The notes under the pieces: generated by a model | Databases searched by the model: none | Told to the model about the DNA's origin: nothing | What the model saw: only the letters and a program-made list of their open reading frames with translations | Assembly (NCBI RefSeq): GCF_900232905.1 | Contig: NZ_OCTQ01000001.1 | Span: forward strand, 1 to 64,000 | Length of the DNA: 64,000 nt | Reading direction: 5' to 3' | Source of the DNA: Miniphocaeibacter massiliensis | Lineage (GTDB): Bacteria > Bacillota > Clostridia > Tissierellales > Peptoniphilaceae | Shown here: positions 13,776-21,048 of the stretch, piece after piece | Layout of the letters: the number at the start of each line of letters is the position of its first letter | Numbering within the stretch: position 1 is the first letter of the stretch | Made by a program: the position numbers and the translations under genes

Positions 13776-14748
13776 AGATTTGAAAATAGTAACAATCGGT
13801 GGAGGAACAGGAAACTCTACAATCCTTAGAGGTCTTAAAAAATTTACTACAAATATAACTACAATAGTTACAGTTGCAGATGATGGCGGAGGGTCAGGTG
13901 TACTTAGGGAAGAACTTGGAATACTTCCTCCAGGTGATATAAGAGCATGTCTGATAGCACTTGCAAATACAGAACCAGCAATGGAAAAACTTATGCAATA
14001 TAGATTTAATGAGGGTAAATTAAAAGGCCAATCATTTGGAAATCTATTTTTAGCAGCAATGAATGATATATATGGTGATTTTGATAAAGCTGTTAAGGAA
14101 GCGGGGGAAGTACTTGCAATAACAGGTAAAGTTTTACCAATGACACTTGAAGATGTAGTATTATATGCTGAACTTGAAGGCGGAATTACTTTAAAGGGTG
14201 AGTCTAATATAACAGAAAAAAATAAAGATTTTAAGAAAAAGATAAATAGAGTATATATAGAACCAAAGTTATCTGATCCTTTAGATGAAGCAATTGATGA
14301 TATTATGGATGCTGACTTAATCATAATAGGACCAGGAAGTTTGTATACTTCAATTATTCCAAATCTTTTAGTAAAGAATATAGCAGAAGCTTTAAATAGA
14401 ACAAATGCTAAAATTTATTATGTTTGTAATATAATGACACAAGATGGTGAAACAGATAATATGGGAGTAAAAGAACATGTTGAAGCTATAAATAGGCATT
14501 TAGGATATGATATAATAGATAAAATTGTTGTAAACAATGATATTATACCTAATGAAGTATTACAGAAATATGAAGCTAAACCTATTTATTATACAAAAGC
14601 TGACGAAGAAAAATTAGATAATTATGAAGTATTATTATGTCCATGTTACTATTTGCTAGATAAGTATATAAGGCATGATGCAGAAAGAATAAGCAAATAT
14701 ATAATAGATGACTTTAATAAAGATATAGTAAAAATATATGATATGTAA
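13741..14748 (+). CDS. yvcK: Gluconeogenesis factor YvcK (GlmR/CofD-like)
   Basis: UDP-GlcNAc-binding protein needed for growth on gluconeogenic carbon sources and for wall synthesis in other Firmicutes. The 335-residue protein shows the CofD-like fold with VTIGGGTGNSTILRGLKKF (about residues 17-35), VADDGGGSGVLREELG, PPGDIRACL and IIGPGSLYTSIIPNLLV. The ATG at 13741 has AAGGAGAGG six bases upstream and overlaps rapZ. In many Firmicutes whiA follows directly; here whiA is 5.4 kb away. A strong terminator follows. Confidence 0.92.
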   Translation: MYPIEIQNIGNKDLKIVTIGGGTGNSTILRGLKKFTTNITTIVTVADDGGGSGVLREELGILPPGDIRACLIALANTEPAMEKLMQYRFNEGKLKGQSFGNLFLAAMNDIYGDFDKAVKEAGEVLAITGKVLPMTLEDVVLYAELEGGITLKGESNITEKNKDFKKKINRVYIEPKLSDPLDEAIDDIMDADLIIIGPGSLYTSIIPNLLVKNIAEALNRTNAKIYYVCNIMTQDGETDNMGVKEHVEAINRHLGYDIIDKIVVNNDIIPNEVLQKYEAKPIYYTKADEEKLDNYEVLLCPCYYLLDKYIRHDAERISKYIIDDFNKDIVKIYDM

Positions 14749-14778
14749 ACGAGTATTTTCATATACTCGTTTTTTTTA
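14749..14778 (+). terminator. Intrinsic terminator after yvcK
   Basis: ACGAGTAT / ATACTCGT (14749-14756, 14763-14770), six-base loop, then nine T. Confidence 0.87.
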
Positions 14779-14795
14779 TAACTATCTTTTACAAC

Positions 14796-14824
14796 TTGAA
14801 AAGAAAAAGTTATATATGTAAAAT
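14796..14824 (+). promoter_or_regulatory. Promoter of the double-cubane protein pair
   Basis: TTGAAA (14796-14801), 17-base spacer, TAAAAT (14819-14824) preceded by TG. AGGAGGAGG follows before the ATG. Confidence 0.65.
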
Positions 14825-14842
14825 GATACAAGGAGGAGGAAT

Positions 14843-15631
14843 ATGAATTTTATAGGTATAGGTATAGATATTGGTTCAACTGCAAGTAAGGTAGCAATAA
14901 GAGGTGACTATATAAATGAATTTGTGCTTCCAACTGGCTGGAATAGTAAGGAAACAGCGCTACATATAAAAAGAAAATTGCTCGAAGAACACAGTATAAA
15001 TGTAGAAGAAGAAAATGTATTTGTAATTTCTACAGGCTATGGACGTGTTTCTGTACCTTATTCTAATAAAGAAATAACAGAAATTACATGCCATGGAGTA
15101 GGTGTGAAAGAACAATTTAAATATGATCTTTGTACTATAATTGATGTTGGTGGACAAGATACTAAAGTAATTAATTTAAAAGATGGGTTTGTAGATGATT
15201 TCATAATGAATGATAAATGTTCTGCCGGAACAGGTAAGTTTTTAGAAATTATGGCAAATAGATTAAATATTACTTTAGAAGAGTTGTTTGAACTTGCAGA
15301 TATGGGAGAAAAGATAAAAATTAGTTCAATGTGCACTGTATTTGCAGAGTCAGAAATAATATCTTTGATGGGAGAAGGAGAAAAAATAGAGAATATTGCC
15401 TCTGGGATAGTTGATTCTGTAGTAACGAAAGTATCACAATTGGTGAAAAGACAGGGAATACAAGGACAAGTAATTTTAACAGGGGGGCTTTCAACAAATA
15501 AATTTTTCAAGAAATATTTGACAGAAAAACTTGGAGAAAATGTTGAAGGTTATGAAAAAGGAAGATTTGCAGGAGCTATAGGAGCAGCCTTAATAGCAGA
15601 AGAAAAATTTAACAAAAGGGGTAGAGTATGA
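14843..15631 (+). CDS. ATP-dependent activator of a double-cubane protein (DCCP-R, YjiL-like)
   Basis: A 262-residue BadF/BadG/HgdC-type (PF01869) ASKHA ATPase. It shows IGIDIGSTASKVAIRG (residues 5-20), IIDVGGQDTKVI (about 98-109), the [4Fe-4S]-ligating cysteines in NDKCSAGTGKFLE (about 125) and SSMCTVFAESEI (about 164), and VILTGGLSTN. Homodimers of this type hold one cluster between subunits and use ATP hydrolysis to push an electron into a partner 2-hydroxyacyl-CoA dehydratase or double-cubane protein. The partner is the next gene, overlapping by 4 bases. The partner's likeness to YjiM makes YjiL the best label. It has its own promoter. Confidence 0.87.
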   Translation: MNFIGIGIDIGSTASKVAIRGDYINEFVLPTGWNSKETALHIKRKLLEEHSINVEEENVFVISTGYGRVSVPYSNKEITEITCHGVGVKEQFKYDLCTIIDVGGQDTKVINLKDGFVDDFIMNDKCSAGTGKFLEIMANRLNITLEELFELADMGEKIKISSMCTVFAESEIISLMGEGEKIENIASGIVDSVVTKVSQLVKRQGIQGQVILTGGLSTNKFFKKYLTEKLGENVEGYEKGRFAGAIGAALIAEEKFNKRGRV

Positions 15632-16773
15632 TTGATATAAGAAAAGAATTACCAGAAATATTTGATGATTTTGCAGATGGTAGGAAAAATGCATTTCTAA
15701 AAGTAAGAGATGTTAAAGAAAATGGAAATCCTTTAATAGGAGTTTTTTGCACATTTTTTCCACAAGAACTTGCTTTAGCAATTGGAGGAACTTCTGTATC
15801 ACTTTGTTCAACATCAGATGAAACAATATCAGAAGCAGAAAAAGATTTACCAAGAAACTTATGTCCATTAATAAAATCTAGTTATGGGTTTGCAATAACA
15901 GATAAATGTCCGTTCTTCTATTTTTCAGATTTGATAGTTGGAGAAACTACTTGCGATGGTAAAAAGAAAATGTACGAATACTTAGGGGAAACAAAAAATG
16001 TTCATGTAATGGAACTTCCAAATACTCAAAGTGAAGAAGGACTTGTACTTTGGGAAAAAGAAATACATAAGATGATAAATATATTAGAAGAACAATTTGG
16101 TAGAAAAATTACAAAAGAAAAATTAGAAGAAGCTATTAAAATAAAAAATGCAGAAAGATCAGCAGTAAAAGATTTTTATGGAATAATGAAAGAAGAGGAA
16201 ATTCCAGTAACAGGGTTGGAATTATGGCATGTGTTAACAGGAATAACATTTGAGTTTAATAAACAAAATATACCAGAACAATTGAAAGAATTAAAAGAAA
16301 AAATATACTCAGAAAATAAAAAAATAACAGGAAGACCAAGAATATTAATAACAGGATGTCCAATAGGAGCTGCTACAGAGAAAGTTATTGAAGCAGTAGA
16401 AAATAATGGTGGAATAGTAGTAGGATATGAAAATTGTGGTGGTGCAAAAGCTATTGACAGAAATGTTGAAGAAGGAACAGATGACCCAGTAAGAGCTATT
16501 GCAGAAAAATATATTCAAATTGGTTGCGCGTGTATGTCACCAAATCCAAATAGAATAGAACTATTAAATAGACTAATAGATGAGTACAAAGTAGATGGCG
16601 TTATAGATATGCATTTACAGGCTTGTCAGCCATTCCAAGTAGAATCTTTAAAAATAAAAAGATTTGCGAATAATGATAAAAATATTCCTTATATTAGTGT
16701 AGAAACAGATTATTCACAATCAGATGTAGGACAATTAAATACAAGAATAGCAGCATTTATAGAAATGCTGTAA
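15628..16773 (+). CDS. Double-cubane-cluster protein, YjiM-like 2-hydroxyacyl-CoA dehydratase family
   Basis: A 381-residue member of the HgdB/FldB (PF06050) superfamily. Long segments agree with my memory of E. coli YjiM: SLCSTSDETISEAEKDLPRN, LCPLIKSSYGF, TDKCPFFYFSDL, VGETTCDGKKKMYEYLGE, ILITGCPIGAA, VVGYENCGGAKA, ETDYSQSDVGQLNTR. That group, rather than the true amino-acid dehydratases, contains proteins characterised as carrying a [8Fe-9S] double-cubane cluster. Candidate cluster cysteines are in CTFFP, LCP, KCP, TTCDG, GCP, NCGG, GCACMSP and QACQ. There is no second dehydratase subunit gene, as expected for this group. Known members reduce small molecules such as acetylene in vitro; the natural reaction is unknown. 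Confidence 0.85.
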   Translation: MIDIRKELPEIFDDFADGRKNAFLKVRDVKENGNPLIGVFCTFFPQELALAIGGTSVSLCSTSDETISEAEKDLPRNLCPLIKSSYGFAITDKCPFFYFSDLIVGETTCDGKKKMYEYLGETKNVHVMELPNTQSEEGLVLWEKEIHKMINILEEQFGRKITKEKLEEAIKIKNAERSAVKDFYGIMKEEEIPVTGLELWHVLTGITFEFNKQNIPEQLKELKEKIYSENKKITGRPRILITGCPIGAATEKVIEAVENNGGIVVGYENCGGAKAIDRNVEEGTDDPVRAIAEKYIQIGCACMSPNPNRIELLNRLIDEYKVDGVIDMHLQACQPFQVESLKIKRFANNDKNIPYISVETDYSQSDVGQLNTRIAAFIEML

Positions 16774-16775
16774 AA

Positions 16776-16805
16776 AATAAGGAATGATTTTTCATTCCTT
16801 ATTTT
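16776..16805. terminator. Bidirectional terminator
   Basis: A 12-bp stem AATAAGGAATGA / TCATTCCTTATT (16776-16787, 16792-16803) with a four-base loop. It serves the double-cubane operon and the convergent hydrolase gene, whose stop codon lies within the right arm. Confidence 0.85.
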
Positions 16806-17803
16806 AATAATGGTAGAATATATTTTTTTATAAAAATCCATCTATTTCTAGCTTTAGGAATATAATCGGAAACAATAGAAATAACAGTATCCATTTTAGG
16901 TATAATACAAATACATCGGCCACCTGTTCCCATAGCACAATATGCATCAATATCTTCATATTTATAAAGCCACCACAAATAACCATAATCATATTTTAGT
17001 TTTGTTGTGGATTCTTCAACCCAATTATTAGGCAGGACTTTTACTCCATTCCACACACCATTATTTAAATATAAGAAACCGAACTTAGCCATTTCTCTAG
17101 GAGTTAGACTTAACCCATAGCCTCCAATAGTATAATTTTGGGGATCGTGTTGCCAACCTCTGGCATTTTTTCCAAATATATAATTAGCAGTATAACTTTC
17201 CATCTTGAAATTTGGAATAATATCTATACCAATTTTATTAAATAATTCTTTATTAGCATATTCTCTTGCTGTAAATCCACTAGATTTTGTAAGGACTCCA
17301 GAAAGGATATGAGTTCCTATAGTAGAATATTTAAATGTTCTGCGTCCTTTGTTAGCAGCGAGAATATTTAAGGAATACTTCATCCAATGAGAAGAATCTA
17401 TAAGTTCTCCAATAGGTTCATTAATAGATTCAAATGGATATGGTGCTACACAGGTAAGTAAATCTAAGATTCTAATATCTTTTTTTATAGGATTGTCAGT
17501 CTTATAATCTGGAAAATAATTTAAAATTTTTTCATCTAACGTTTTAATATATCCATCCTTCATTGAAATACCAATTAAAGATGATAAAACAGATTTAGTT
17601 ACAGAAGCCACAGAATATTTTTGCTCTTTATTATGACCATTAAAATATTTTTCGTATTTTATATAACCATTTTTCACAACTACAATTCCAGCAATATTTT
17701 TGAATCCTTTTTCTATGTTGGATTCTAAATTTTGTTGTTCTTCTTCAGTAAATCCTTTACTAGAAAACTTCCAATCGTCAGTAGGCCAGTAATCTCTTTG
17801 CAT
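16799..17803 (-). CDS. Serine hydrolase, beta-lactamase/NylB-like family
   Basis: A 334-residue protein of the beta-lactamase (PF00144) fold. The nucleophile lies in the SxxK motif SVASVTKSVLSSLIG (about residues 83-97). FKYSTIGTHILSG (about 156-168) takes the place of the class C YxN motif, with T replacing N. GTGGRCICII replaces KTG. This pattern resembles 6-aminohexanoate-dimer hydrolase-type esterases more than true beta-lactamases, so I do not predict antibiotic resistance. No signal peptide is visible, so it is likely cytosolic. The ATG has GAGGAG eight bases upstream. Confidence 0.82.
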   Translation of the reverse strand: MQRDYWPTDDWKFSSKGFTEEEQQNLESNIEKGFKNIAGIVVVKNGYIKYEKYFNGHNKEQKYSVASVTKSVLSSLIGISMKDGYIKTLDEKILNYFPDYKTDNPIKKDIRILDLLTCVAPYPFESINEPIGELIDSSHWMKYSLNILAANKGRRTFKYSTIGTHILSGVLTKSSGFTAREYANKELFNKIGIDIIPNFKMESYTANYIFGKNARGWQHDPQNYTIGGYGLSLTPREMAKFGFLYLNNGVWNGVKVLPNNWVEESTTKLKYDYGYLWWLYKYEDIDAYCAMGTGGRCICIIPKMDTVISIVSDYIPKARNRWIFIKKYILPLLK

Positions 17804-17852
17804 TTGCTCTCCTCAATTTAAATAATTATATAATATATGATAACACAATAAA

Positions 17853-17881
17853 TTGACCACATAAAATAAATAGAATATAAT
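17853..17881 (+). promoter_or_regulatory. Promoter of the frameshifted lipoprotein gene
   Basis: TTGACC (17853-17858), 17-base spacer, TATAAT (17876-17881). The near-consensus promoter 23 bases before the ATG argues that the gene downstream is, or recently was, functional. Confidence 0.75.
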
Positions 17882-17903
17882 TGAGTACTATATAGGGGGA
17901 TAT

Positions 17904-18379
17904 ATGAGAAGAAAACTTACATAATATATATTATATTAATACTAATTTTATTGGTATCTTGTACGCCAAAAAGACAAGCTAAAATTTATGATGATAATAA
18001 CAGAATAGCTGAAATGAAAGATAATTGTACTATAAAAAATATGCAAGGAAAAGAGACAGAAGATGAAAAATCTCTTGACTATAAACTAAATTTCACAGGG
18101 GTTTTTACAATATGGGAAATTGAAGTAAAGGAAGACAGTAAAATAACAGCAGATATATATTCTGTGCTTGATAATGAATATATAAAAGTTGTATTAGTAA
18201 ATTCAAAAAAAGAAGTAATAAATTTGAGTGAAGGAAATTTTAATGAAAAGGTAGATGTAAATTTATCAAGAGGGAAGAACTACATAAAACTTGTTAGTAA
18301 AGGTAGCAAAGGAAGATTAAAAATGAGTATAAGTGAAGATGATAGTATCAGTTTTAAAAGAATTGATTTGGAGCATTAA
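17904..18379 (+). CDS. Small lipoprotein, start region frameshifted
   Basis: The open frame (first possible start TTG 17951, 142 residues) begins MVSCTPKRQ, which is the end of a lipoprotein signal: extending the frame upstream reads IIYIILILILLVSC with a lipobox at the Cys. The only ATG with a good site (GGGGGA, then ATG at 17904) reads MRRKLT and stops. One extra A in the AAAA run at 17912-17915 would join them as MRRKTYIIYIILILILLVSC. So the gene either carries a real frameshift, is switched by slippage in the A run, or contains a sequence error. The mature part is hydrophilic and matches no family I know. A good promoter and a terminator flank it. Confidence 0.7.
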
Positions 18380-18389
18380 TATTTAGAAT

Positions 18390-18417
18390 AAAATAACACC
18401 AAGATTGGTGTTATTTT
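18390..18417. terminator. Bidirectional terminator
   Basis: An 11-bp stem AAAATAACACC / GGTGTTATTTT (18390-18400, 18407-18417). It stands between the lipoprotein and the convergent M42 gene and overlaps the stop codon of the latter. Confidence 0.85.
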
Positions 18418-19448
18418 ATTGATTCAACAAATCCTATTCCAAGATTCATAGTATTTAATATTCCATTTATGTGTGTTCTTTCAAAAGCATGAGAAGCATC
18501 TACACCAGGTCCTATTAGTCCAACTTTAAAATCGTACCCTGCTCTAAGCGCAGCAGAAGCATCTGAACCATAATTAATAAAAATATCTATTTTATAGTCT
18601 AAACTTTTTTCTTTAGCAACTTTTTCTAAAATTCTTCTAGTTTCTAAATCATAAGGTCCACTTCCATCTTTTACACATATAGTTGTTGCAGTTTCTTCTG
18701 AAGTTTGAGTATTTCCAATAGCTGCCATATCTATGGCAATAAAATACTCTGTACTTGTAGGTAAAGCAGAAGAACTACCGTGTCCGACTTCTTCATAATT
18801 ACTAATAAAGAAATTAACAGTATATTCAGGCTTTATATTATTTTCAACAAAATATTTAGCTATTCCTATAATTGCAGCTACACCAGCCTTGTCATCTAAA
18901 TGGCGTGATTTAATATAACCATTTTCTAAAATTTCTACATTAGGATTAAGATAGATGAAATCTCCAACTTGTATTCCAAGTTTTTCTACATCTTCTTTAG
19001 ATTTTACAACTTCATCTATTCTTATCTCTATATTGTCTAAAGTTCGTTCTAAAGAATTGACATCGTTATAAACGTGAACAGATTGGTGTTCGAAAATTAC
19101 AGTACCACTATAATTTCTGTTTTCTGATGTATTAATTGTTACATAATTTCCTTCTATTGTAGAAAGAGAATATCCACCAATTTTTGTAACTTTAAGTCTT
19201 CCATTTGTTTTGATTTCTTTTACCATTAATCCAAGAGTATCAACATGTCCTGAAAAAGTAATAGCTTCTTTTTTCTTCCCTTCTATTGAAGCAATTAGAG
19301 CACCTTTTGTTGTTTTATAGGTTTGTAATCCTAGATTTTTAAATTCAGATTCTACAAATTTTATAGCTTTTTCAGTATCTCCAGTAGGACTAGGTATTAA
19401 TAGTAAATCTTTTAAAAACTTAGTAATATAATTTTTGTCTATACTCAT
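18411..19448 (-). CDS. M42 family metallopeptidase (aminopeptidase)
   Basis: A 345-residue M42 (PF05343) peptidase, normally a cytosolic dodecamer removing N-terminal residues from peptides. Metal and catalytic motifs in order: TFSGHVDTLGLMV (about residues 59-71), SRHLDDKAGVAA (about 180-191), YEEVGHGSS (about 213-221), AIDMAA (about 234) and NYGSDASAALRAGYD. The late THINGI segment supplies the last metal ligand. The start ATG has AAGGAGAG seven bases upstream. Together with the M18 enzyme at 50661 it points to peptide-based nutrition. Confidence 0.92.
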   Translation of the reverse strand: MSIDKNYITKFLKDLLLIPSPTGDTEKAIKFVESEFKNLGLQTYKTTKGALIASIEGKKKEAITFSGHVDTLGLMVKEIKTNGRLKVTKIGGYSLSTIEGNYVTINTSENRNYSGTVIFEHQSVHVYNDVNSLERTLDNIEIRIDEVVKSKEDVEKLGIQVGDFIYLNPNVEILENGYIKSRHLDDKAGVAAIIGIAKYFVENNIKPEYTVNFFISNYEEVGHGSSSALPTSTEYFIAIDMAAIGNTQTSEETATTICVKDGSGPYDLETRRILEKVAKEKSLDYKIDIFINYGSDASAALRAGYDFKVGLIGPGVDASHAFERTHINGILNTMNLGIGFVESIK

Positions 19449-19633
19449 ATAGTCTCTCCTTATTAAATTAAATATGTACAGATATATTATAGCAAGAAAG
19501 ATTAAAAATTAACAATAATTTACATTAAATGAATAATATTTAAATGAAATGCATATCTTAAATAAGGATACATAAGCTCAGCGAAAATTATAATATATTC
19601 AAATTTCACAGTATAGTTGTTTGATAGAAAATA

Positions 19634-19662
19634 CTGACTTTATTTTTTAGATAGGTTATAAT
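19634..19662 (+). promoter_or_regulatory. Promoter of the NUDIX-whiA unit
   Basis: CTGACT (19634-19639), 17-base spacer, TATAAT (19657-19662), followed by AAGGAGG before the ATG at 19703. Confidence 0.6.
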
Positions 19663-19702
19663 AAATTATAGTTTACGTATTTTTCAGATAAGGAGGAAAA
19701 AC

Positions 19703-20116
19703 ATGGAAGAGGTAAGCGCAGGTGGAATAGTTGTCCATAAAGGTAATGTCGCTGTATTAAGAAAGTTTCGTGGTGATTGGGTACTTCCAAAAGGGCGCTT
19801 AGAAAAAGGAGAAACCAGAGAAGAGGCTGCTTTAAGAGAAGTAAATGAAGAATCTGGTGTAAAAGCAGAAATAGTTAGATATATTGGTTATGTAAAATAT
19901 TGGTACAAACATATAGATGGTATAAAAGTTCAAAAAACGGTACATTATTATTATATGAAAACAACAGATACAAAGCTTATTCCTCAAAGGGAAGAAGGCT
20001 TTACAGAAGCTGCATATATGCCTTTTGAAAAAGCAATGCATTATTTAAAACACGATGCTGAAAAAAATATGGTTAATAAGGTTAAAGATTTTTACAAAAA
20101 AGAAAGTAAGGGATAA
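19703..20116 (+). CDS. NUDIX hydrolase
   Basis: A 137-residue NUDIX protein hydrolysing a nucleoside diphosphate linked to another moiety, Mg-dependent. The full NUDIX box is present: G-x5-E-x7-REV-x-EE-x-GV over about residues 31-54. The opening EVSAGGIVVHKGNVAVLR resembles small cytosolic housekeeping NUDIX enzymes. The substrate is not predictable; oxidised nucleotides, Ap4A or NDP-sugars are all possible. It lies two bases before whiA and has AAGGAGG upstream. Confidence 0.88.
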   Translation: MEEVSAGGIVVHKGNVAVLRKFRGDWVLPKGRLEKGETREEAALREVNEESGVKAEIVRYIGYVKYWYKHIDGIKVQKTVHYYYMKTTDTKLIPQREEGFTEAAYMPFEKAMHYLKHDAEKNMVNKVKDFYKKESKG

Positions 20117-20118
20117 AA

Positions 20119-21048
20119 ATGTCTTTTTCCGTTGATGTAAAAAATGAGGTTTCTAGAATAAAAGTAGATTCTAAAGAAGAAATTTTAGCCGAATTAGGAG
20201 CTATGTTTAGAGTAAATGGAACTATACTAAAAAACAATCAAAATTTAAAATTGAAATTTACAACAGAAATTAATTTAATTGCTAGAAGAATATTTACAGA
20301 AATAAAACAAATTTATGATTATGATTCTGTAATAGAAGTTAGTAAAAATAATCAGTTGAGAAAGAAAAGTTCTTATAGGATATATTTAGAAGGAGAAATT
20401 GCACAAAATTTTTTGTTTGATATAGGTTTGGATGATGATCCATTTTCATTTATGTTTTTAGATGTTCCAGAAAAATTAGTAGATACTAAAAAAAAGAAAA
20501 AAGCATATATTAGAGGGAGCTTTTTAGGAGCAGGTTCTATTTCTAGTCCAGAAAAAGCATATCATTTGGAAATTATTACAGGAGAACTCAATTACAGTAA
20601 AGAATTTGTAAAATTATTAAATTCATATAATATCTTAGCAAGCATAGTAGAAAGAAATGAGAACTATGTTATATATATAAAAGATAGTGAGATGATTTCT
20701 GATTTTTTATCACTAATAGAAGCTTTTCAAAATCTATTTAAGTTTGAGAATATCAGAGTAGTAAAAGAAATAAAGAATAATGTGAATAGAGTCATGAATT
20801 GTGAATCTGCGAATATGGATAAAACAATAGAAGCTTCATTAAAACAAATAGAAGATATAGAGTTAATTGATGAGAATATTGGATTAGAAAATATTGATAT
20901 AAATTTACAAGAGATTGCAGAAATTAGAAGGTCTAATCCGGAGTATTCATTGAAGCAAATTGGAGAAATGTTAAATCCTTCAGTTGGAAAATCTGGAATA
21001 AATCATAGGTTTAAAAAGTTAAGAGCTATAGCTGACAAATTTAGATAG
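20119..21048 (+). CDS. whiA: DNA-binding protein WhiA
   Basis: The 309-residue protein starts SFSVDVKNEVSRI, as WhiA proteins do. It has a LAGLIDADG-like N-terminal domain (GAMFRVNGTI; YIRGSFLGAGSISSPEKAYHLEI about residues 131-153) and a C-terminal helix-turn-helix (LQEIAEIRRSNPEYSLKQIGEML, then GKSGINHRFKKLRAIA). It regulates sporulation division genes in Streptomyces and affects cell division and chromosome segregation in Bacillus; the role in this coccus-like lineage is unknown. It usually follows yvcK; here it pairs with NUDIX instead. Confidence 0.93.
   Translation: MSFSVDVKNEVSRIKVDSKEEILAELGAMFRVNGTILKNNQNLKLKFTTEINLIARRIFTEIKQIYDYDSVIEVSKNNQLRKKSSYRIYLEGEIAQNFLFDIGLDDDPFSFMFLDVPEKLVDTKKKKKAYIRGSFLGAGSISSPEKAYHLEIITGELNYSKEFVKLLNSYNILASIVERNENYVIYIKDSEMISDFLSLIEAFQNLFKFENIRVVKEIKNNVNRVMNCESANMDKTIEASLKQIEDIELIDENIGLENIDINLQEIAEIRRSNPEYSLKQIGEMLNPSVGKSGINHRFKKLRAIADKFR

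Follow-up and report, generated by a model that had tools for sequence, protein, structure and literature searches.

The window, that is, the whole stretch of 64,000 nucleotides of the Miniphocaeibacter massiliensis genome analyzed here, contains on its forward strand a gene for an ASKHA activase (262 aa, 14843..15631), of the ATP-dependent reductase type that serves double-cubane cluster proteins (DCCPs), followed by a gene for a DCCP of the YjiM type (381 aa, 15628..16773). According to the list of open reading frames, the two genes overlap by 4 bases, and their boundaries are exactly those of the original prediction. The pair is located between yvcK and a convergent gene encoding a beta-lactamase-like protein, and its surroundings are otherwise of a housekeeping nature. 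The upstream genes are presumably murB, PHP, rapZ and yvcK, as named on reading the ORFs; on the downstream side, the beta-lactamase-like, M42 peptidase, NUDIX and WhiA genes were named from profile searches. No metabolic or selenium gene adjoins the pair at this locus.

The pair had been predicted to possess its own promoter and terminator, and the terminator part of this prediction was borne out by hairpins on both sides. An intrinsic terminator 3' of yvcK (14747..14772, forward strand; pattern scan and folding, -11 kcal/mol, z -4.95) sets the pair apart from the upstream genes. Directly after the pair, a 14-bp hairpin common to the convergent gene (16774..16805; -16.4 kcal/mol, z -6.5) was detected by folding and missed by the pattern scan; it is probably a two-way terminator. 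As for the promoter, the scan found a match, TTGAAA-17-TAAAAT (10/12 positions; 14796..14824, forward strand), which is weak evidence because such matches are no commoner in the stretch than chance allows (55 observed vs 52.8 expected from shuffles). A Shine-Dalgarno-like sequence, AAGGAGGAGG, was read 5' of the activase ATG (14830..14839, forward strand). The Rfam scan of positions 14000-20500 at gathering scores returned no RNA element.

In a sister species of the same genus (genome G002), the pair occupies the same site, with amino acid identities of 81% for the activase and 85% for the DCCP. The dN/dS values against this species were 0.096 and 0.068, respectively, which indicates purifying selection, although the values are only rough since dS exceeds 1; they are comparable to or below those of yvcK, whiA, the M42 peptidase and the beta-lactamase-like gene (0.095 to 0.128). 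That the two frames are chance ORFs was rejected on the basis of this purifying selection in the genus comparison. The closest named relatives are Lagierella and Ezakiella. A separate observation concerns positions 17903-18379 of the window, where a small ORF begins with TTG and a lipoprotein-like ILLVSC stretch lies upstream in frame; the closest ATG belongs to a different frame, which soon stops, and the start of the counterpart in G002 is intact. A frameshift or a sequencing slip is possible at this place.

The product of the first gene matches TIGR00241 with 222.5 bits (cut-off 125.4) as well as PF01869, and it aligns over nearly its full length with 1hux (HgdC), 4eht and the DCCP reductase (DCCP-R) 7yyl_E. 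Both CSAGTG and SSMC, the cysteine sites named in the original prediction, are present in the 14843-15631 product, and the cluster cysteines in them both align with those of 1hux. Of the three activase-domain matches in the whole genome, one is the gene of the pair; the other two are domains of a single 1410-aa protein encoded elsewhere (L122:1972-6204, contig C9 of the window's genome, G000), which has no HGD-D match.

The product of the second gene is almost certainly a DCCP. It scores 517 bits with NF040772 (double_cubane; cut-off 350) and 393 bits with PF06050, and its best solved relatives are 6eno/7yyl (E 2.6e-74), with BzdN, HadC and MbdN next at 4e-17 or weaker. The AlphaFold model (pLDDT 84.8, 24 sequences) superimposes on 7yzm with Z 47.5 and on 6eno with Z 47.4 (rmsd 2.0, 373 residues aligned), compared with Z 40.8 for BzdN and Z 39.6 for HadC; rows of the structure comparison below Z 9, which represent single Rossmann-like domains, were taken as generic. 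Six cysteines, C41, C79, C109, C270, C300 and C333, are Cys in all 131 of the gathered DCCPs, in 6eno and in BzdN. These columns would be the ligands of the [8Fe-9S] cluster, as judged from the common set and from an excerpt of PMC11971306 on BzdN, which presents that protein as the only one reported to carry such a cluster besides DCCP. The profile score, the six cysteines and the predicted fold matching 6eno thus uphold the original view of a stand-alone DCCP with its ATP-driven reductase. The long exact segments shared with E. coli YjiM were likewise found: 208 of 380 aligned residues are identical (54.7%), with runs including EAEKDLPRNLCPLIKSSYGF and VGETTCDGKKKMYEY, and YjiM (b4335), itself matching NF040772 with 531 bits, falls into the same short-type clade. 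Overall, the pair is a regular representative of an established family about which little is understood.

The DCCP belongs to the superfamily of the 2-hydroxyacyl-CoA dehydratases and benzoyl-CoA reductases, as shown by the PF06050 match, the 20-22% identity and the fold common with HadC and BzdN, which would fit a subunit of such an enzyme with its partner encoded elsewhere. The window protein nevertheless scores far below the cut-offs of the dehydratase models (HadB/HadC, 96.7 vs 700 and 31.9 vs 750 bits) and of the benzoyl-CoA reductase models (BzdN, TIGR03190, 73.7 vs 453.8; BcrC, 43.3 vs 421.15; BcrB, 33.8 vs 486.55 bits). The only HGD-D (PF06050) match in the whole genome, which is 98% complete, is the DCCP itself; the lack of a second HGD-D gene fits a predicted homodimer and speaks against a subunit of this kind. 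Among 24 dehydratase-type proteins, C79, C109 and C333 are each kept in 19, in contrast to C41 (2), C270 (5) and C300 (4). In the phylogenetic tree of 95 proteins, the window DCCP and E. coli YjiM belong to a short, YjiM-like clade of 53 members (support 99) that contains no dehydratases, and 6eno belongs to a long clade of 25 members (support 99). The branch parting all DCCPs from the dehydratases received a support of only 66 (quick method, long branches flagged); it is therefore the short-type clade, the cysteines and the gene count that argue against a dehydratase. Placement inside a dehydratase clade with the second subunit encoded elsewhere, which would have refuted the original prediction, was not observed, and as far as sequence allows, a dehydratase or benzoyl-CoA reductase subunit was rejected by profile scores, gene count, cysteines and tree; we regard this reading as extremely improbable.

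The DCCP of Carboxydothermus hydrogenoformans, the organism of the DCCP/DCCP-R structures (PDB 6eno, 7yyl, 7yzm) that is named in an excerpt of PMC7306483, resembles the window protein in its fold (Z 47, rmsd 2.0), in having the six ligand cysteines together with C60 and C94 and in its ATP-driven activase partner, with 38% identity; it differs in being long-type with an N-terminal extension and in having Thr283 where the window protein has Cys244. BzdN (8s02, class I benzoyl-CoA reductase) shares the six aligned cysteines but only 22% identity, works with BzdO and has Ser239 at the channel position of C244. HadC (3o3m, 2-hydroxyisocaproyl-CoA dehydratase) shares the fold and the activase mechanism, whereas of the six cysteine columns it has four (C79, C109, C300, C333), needs HadB and is 22% identical.

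The two clades differ at C244, which lies in the motif RILITGCPIG of the window protein. Among 103 short-type proteins, the residue at this position is Cys in 90, Ser in 11 and Gly in 2, compared with Thr in 24, Cys in 3 and Ser in 1 of the 28 proteins with a long N-terminus; the position aligns with Ser239 of BzdN and Thr283 of 6eno. According to an excerpt of PMC11971306, Ser239 of BzdN is one of two residues named along a narrow channel that forms the sole access to the double cubane. The YjiM-type clade would thus have a thiol at the cluster-channel position where the crystallised DCCP has a hydroxyl.

The distribution of the two types varies even within the genus: the genome of the window (G000) has a short DCCP only, G002 has a short and a long one, and G001, whose assembly is fragmented and 9% contaminated, has a long one only. 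In long-type operons of family relatives, an extra protein of 244-315 aa is encoded between activase and DCCP, with nine intact cases (L121:6942-7724, L041:6281-7045, L160-L166). It resembles a shortened DCCP relative, had no Pfam match in the two members tested and is missing from the remaining long-type loci compared, including L167 and L179 of the same family; in G002 its gene is split into two ORFs of 136 and 91 aa (L120:6990-7782), and in G001 it is intact. At three loci (L069, L089, L175), an operon runs from a long DCCP through PF11823 and a single activase to a short DCCP, and this activase may serve both DCCP types.

Absence of a metabolic neighbour had led to the proposal of an undescribed reduction. 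The premise holds at the locus itself, but relatives of the pair are repeatedly located beside genes for a putative selenium/sulfur carrier, YedF and SelD. In E. coli, the operon is yjiM-yjiL-ytiA, in which the DCCP gene (b4335) is followed by the activase gene yjiL (b4334) and by ytiA, encoding a PF11823 protein (DUF3343, putative Se/S carrier); in the window, by contrast, the activase gene comes first and no carrier gene follows. Among 61 genomes around that of the window, 51 DCCPs were found over the cut-off, 22 of them long-type and 29 short-type. All 22 long-type DCCPs have PF11823 at a distance of 9-190 bp; of the 29 short-type ones, 5 have it within 1.5 kb and the other 24 do not (one row of this count was reassigned by hand). 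In the long-type loci compared, PF11823 adjoins the DCCP in 27 of 27 cases, most of them also with an activase. None of the dehydratase-type matches in the 61 genomes has PF11823 beside it, as coordinates compared by eye indicate.

For the short type, loci in named genomes were taken from the best 80 of 574 relatives; as these are the best-scoring ones, they sample the close end of the family. Nineteen of the 80 have PF11823, YedF or SelD within 4 kb, one of them additionally with a SelD-linked oxidoreductase, and 61 have no selenium-linked gene within this distance. The labels within 4 kb of these 80 DCCPs comprise 15 PF11823, 12 YedF-like and 7 SelD, and further 13 class-V desulfurase/Sec-lyase-like proteins and 7 MtaA-like methyltransferases. 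The PF11823 proteins have one invariant cysteine (43/43), as would be expected of a persulfide or perselenide carrier; the protein may carry sulfur and not selenium. In Ezakiella peruensis, a gene for a pyridine-nucleotide oxidoreductase (L041:9146-10213) overlaps the end of the short DCCP gene; its product, a relative of the N-terminal half of SelD fusions (TIGR03169, 252 bits vs 310), is a possible electron-transfer partner. L093 and L098 carry short DCCPs of Veillonellaceae, and in L098 the next gene encodes an MtaA-like methyltransferase; an MtaA-like gene near short DCCPs recalls the type I mlp clusters described in an excerpt of PMC10418091.

The host itself is a selenium user. Its genome encodes a SelD of the Sec type, with an in-frame TGA, and SelB; one group of genes comprises YedE, TusA-like and PF11823 genes, and YedF is found with a second PF11823 gene. 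The YedE, TusA-like and YedF names are those that we presume from reading the ORFs, not from a family search. The two PF11823 genes lie on contigs C8 and C11, away from the pair, so that in this host any carrier must act in trans.

The phylum set of 199 genomes, 66 with and 133 without a DCCP, was scored for SelD over its cut-off. SelD was present in 65 of the 66 DCCP genomes, with one DCCP genome lacking it, and in 74 of the 133 others (Fisher 5.5e-12); in the host's family, the figures were 17/17 and 9/20 (p 2e-4). PF11823 occurred in 59 of the 66 DCCP genomes of the phylum set, being absent from 7, and in 68 of the 133 others. Within the genomes having SelD, the association of DCCP with PF11823 was not significant (58/65 vs 58/74, p 0.11). 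As a control, genomes with a HadC-type dehydratase were considered: phylum-wide, 12 of 13 have SelD (p 0.11), and among DCCP-negative genomes SelD is present in 4 of 5 with a dehydratase vs 70 of 128 without (p 0.38). The phylum-wide control did not cleanly show that DCCP alone tracks SelD; in the host's family, dehydratases were not linked to SelD (8/13 vs 18/24). The co-occurrence is confounded by lifestyle, and the genomes are not independent. The distribution is supportive, not decisive, and the neighbourhood of the long type is stronger evidence for a selenium/sulfur role.

On the basis of gene context, the pair probably carries out ATP-driven reductions at low potential within the selenium/sulfur economy. 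By analogy with the family, from which the cluster type, the ATP-driven transfer and the electron donor are presumed, ferredoxin or flavodoxin would pass an electron to the [4Fe-4S] cluster shared by the two subunits of the activase dimer, from where ATP binding and hydrolysis would push it onto the [8Fe-9S] double cubane of the DCCP; structure entries include DCCP:DCCP-R complexes with and without nucleotide. The DCCP would then reduce a small substrate at very low potential, the likeliest being Se(0)/S(0) delivered by a carrier, or an organic selenium or sulfur compound, brought to the hydride level. S(0)/HS- has a potential near -0.27 V, and Se(0)/HSe- one near -0.7 V at pH 7, an estimate from known constants that lies below ferredoxin and would explain the expenditure of ATP. 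For this reason Se(0), although improbable when taken by itself, is preferred as a single substrate. The narrowest form of this idea, which we consider quite unlikely as it stands, is that the YjiM-type DCCP is the cell's ATP-driven selenide maker: Se(0) would pass from the one invariant cysteine of a DUF3343 carrier to Cys244, situated where the cluster channel opens, be reduced to HSe- at the double cubane and be handed to SelD. Against a selenium/sulfur role, no selenium gene lies beside the pair, and most short-type loci are without one nearby (61/80 in the best 80 of 574 relatives; 24/29 in the 61 genomes).

These same observations fit the possibility that the pair performs an unrelated, undescribed low-potential reduction, the short-type DCCPs having left the selenium/sulfur context of the long type. 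Both here and at the corresponding site of the sister species the pair stands by itself, the short type differs at C244, and an excerpt of PMC11971306 reports that the characterised long-type DCCP reduces acetylene, hydrazine and azide. Yet YjiM of E. coli, itself short-type, is encoded beside PF11823, the 19 loci of the best 80 of 574 have selenium-linked genes, and all 17 DCCP genomes of the host's family have SelD; an unrelated reduction is possible, although on balance unlikely. The pair might instead be a valve that serves as an ATP-driven sink or store for surplus low-potential electrons, having no single specific substrate. Parts of two papers are in line with this: in the redox-buffering section of PMC7306483, the values for DCCP and its reductase in Calderihabitans maritimus fall under CO (-5.5, -4.5), and in a table on YgfI, a LysR regulator, in PMC9068703, E. 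coli yjiM and yjiL are listed with negative values together with hyc, hyp, pflB and dmsA. Spending ATP on lowering the potential of electrons would make a poor sink, however, and a valve would leave unexplained why a small carrier protein is so tightly linked; we consider the valve very unlikely. Of the readings set out here, that of a reductase of the selenium/sulfur economy is the one we prefer.

A link of DCCPs with selenium is not new. In excerpts of Lin et al. 2015 (PMC5322559), YedE, YedF and DUF3343 are proposed as selenium genes, and the linked genes of Table 1 include those for an activase and a 2-hydroxyglutaryl-CoA dehydratase subunit; an excerpt of PMC10418091 gives the DCCP-selenium link as provisional. 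New here, relative to the literature covered, are the counts, the split into two clades and C244. The search of incomplete coverage returned no report of a physiological DCCP substrate or of a selenium test of YjiM, which does not amount to a claim of absence from print; PMC11971306 states that double-cubane proteins carry a nitrogenase-like cluster and that their natural substrate and biological function are unknown.

The locus alone gives no answer to the question of the substrate, which is made more directly testable by these results. A small Sec-using genome in which a single DCCP is the sole HGD-D protein and one activase stands alone offers a clean setting for it, and the related YjiML(-YtiA) system is present in a standard laboratory strain of E. 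coli. If the selenium/sulfur role is true, the search could be confined to a few candidates instead of covering any small molecule, and C244 would be the residue to mutate; if the selenide-maker reading is true, the natural substrate of the double-cubane cofactor would be named.
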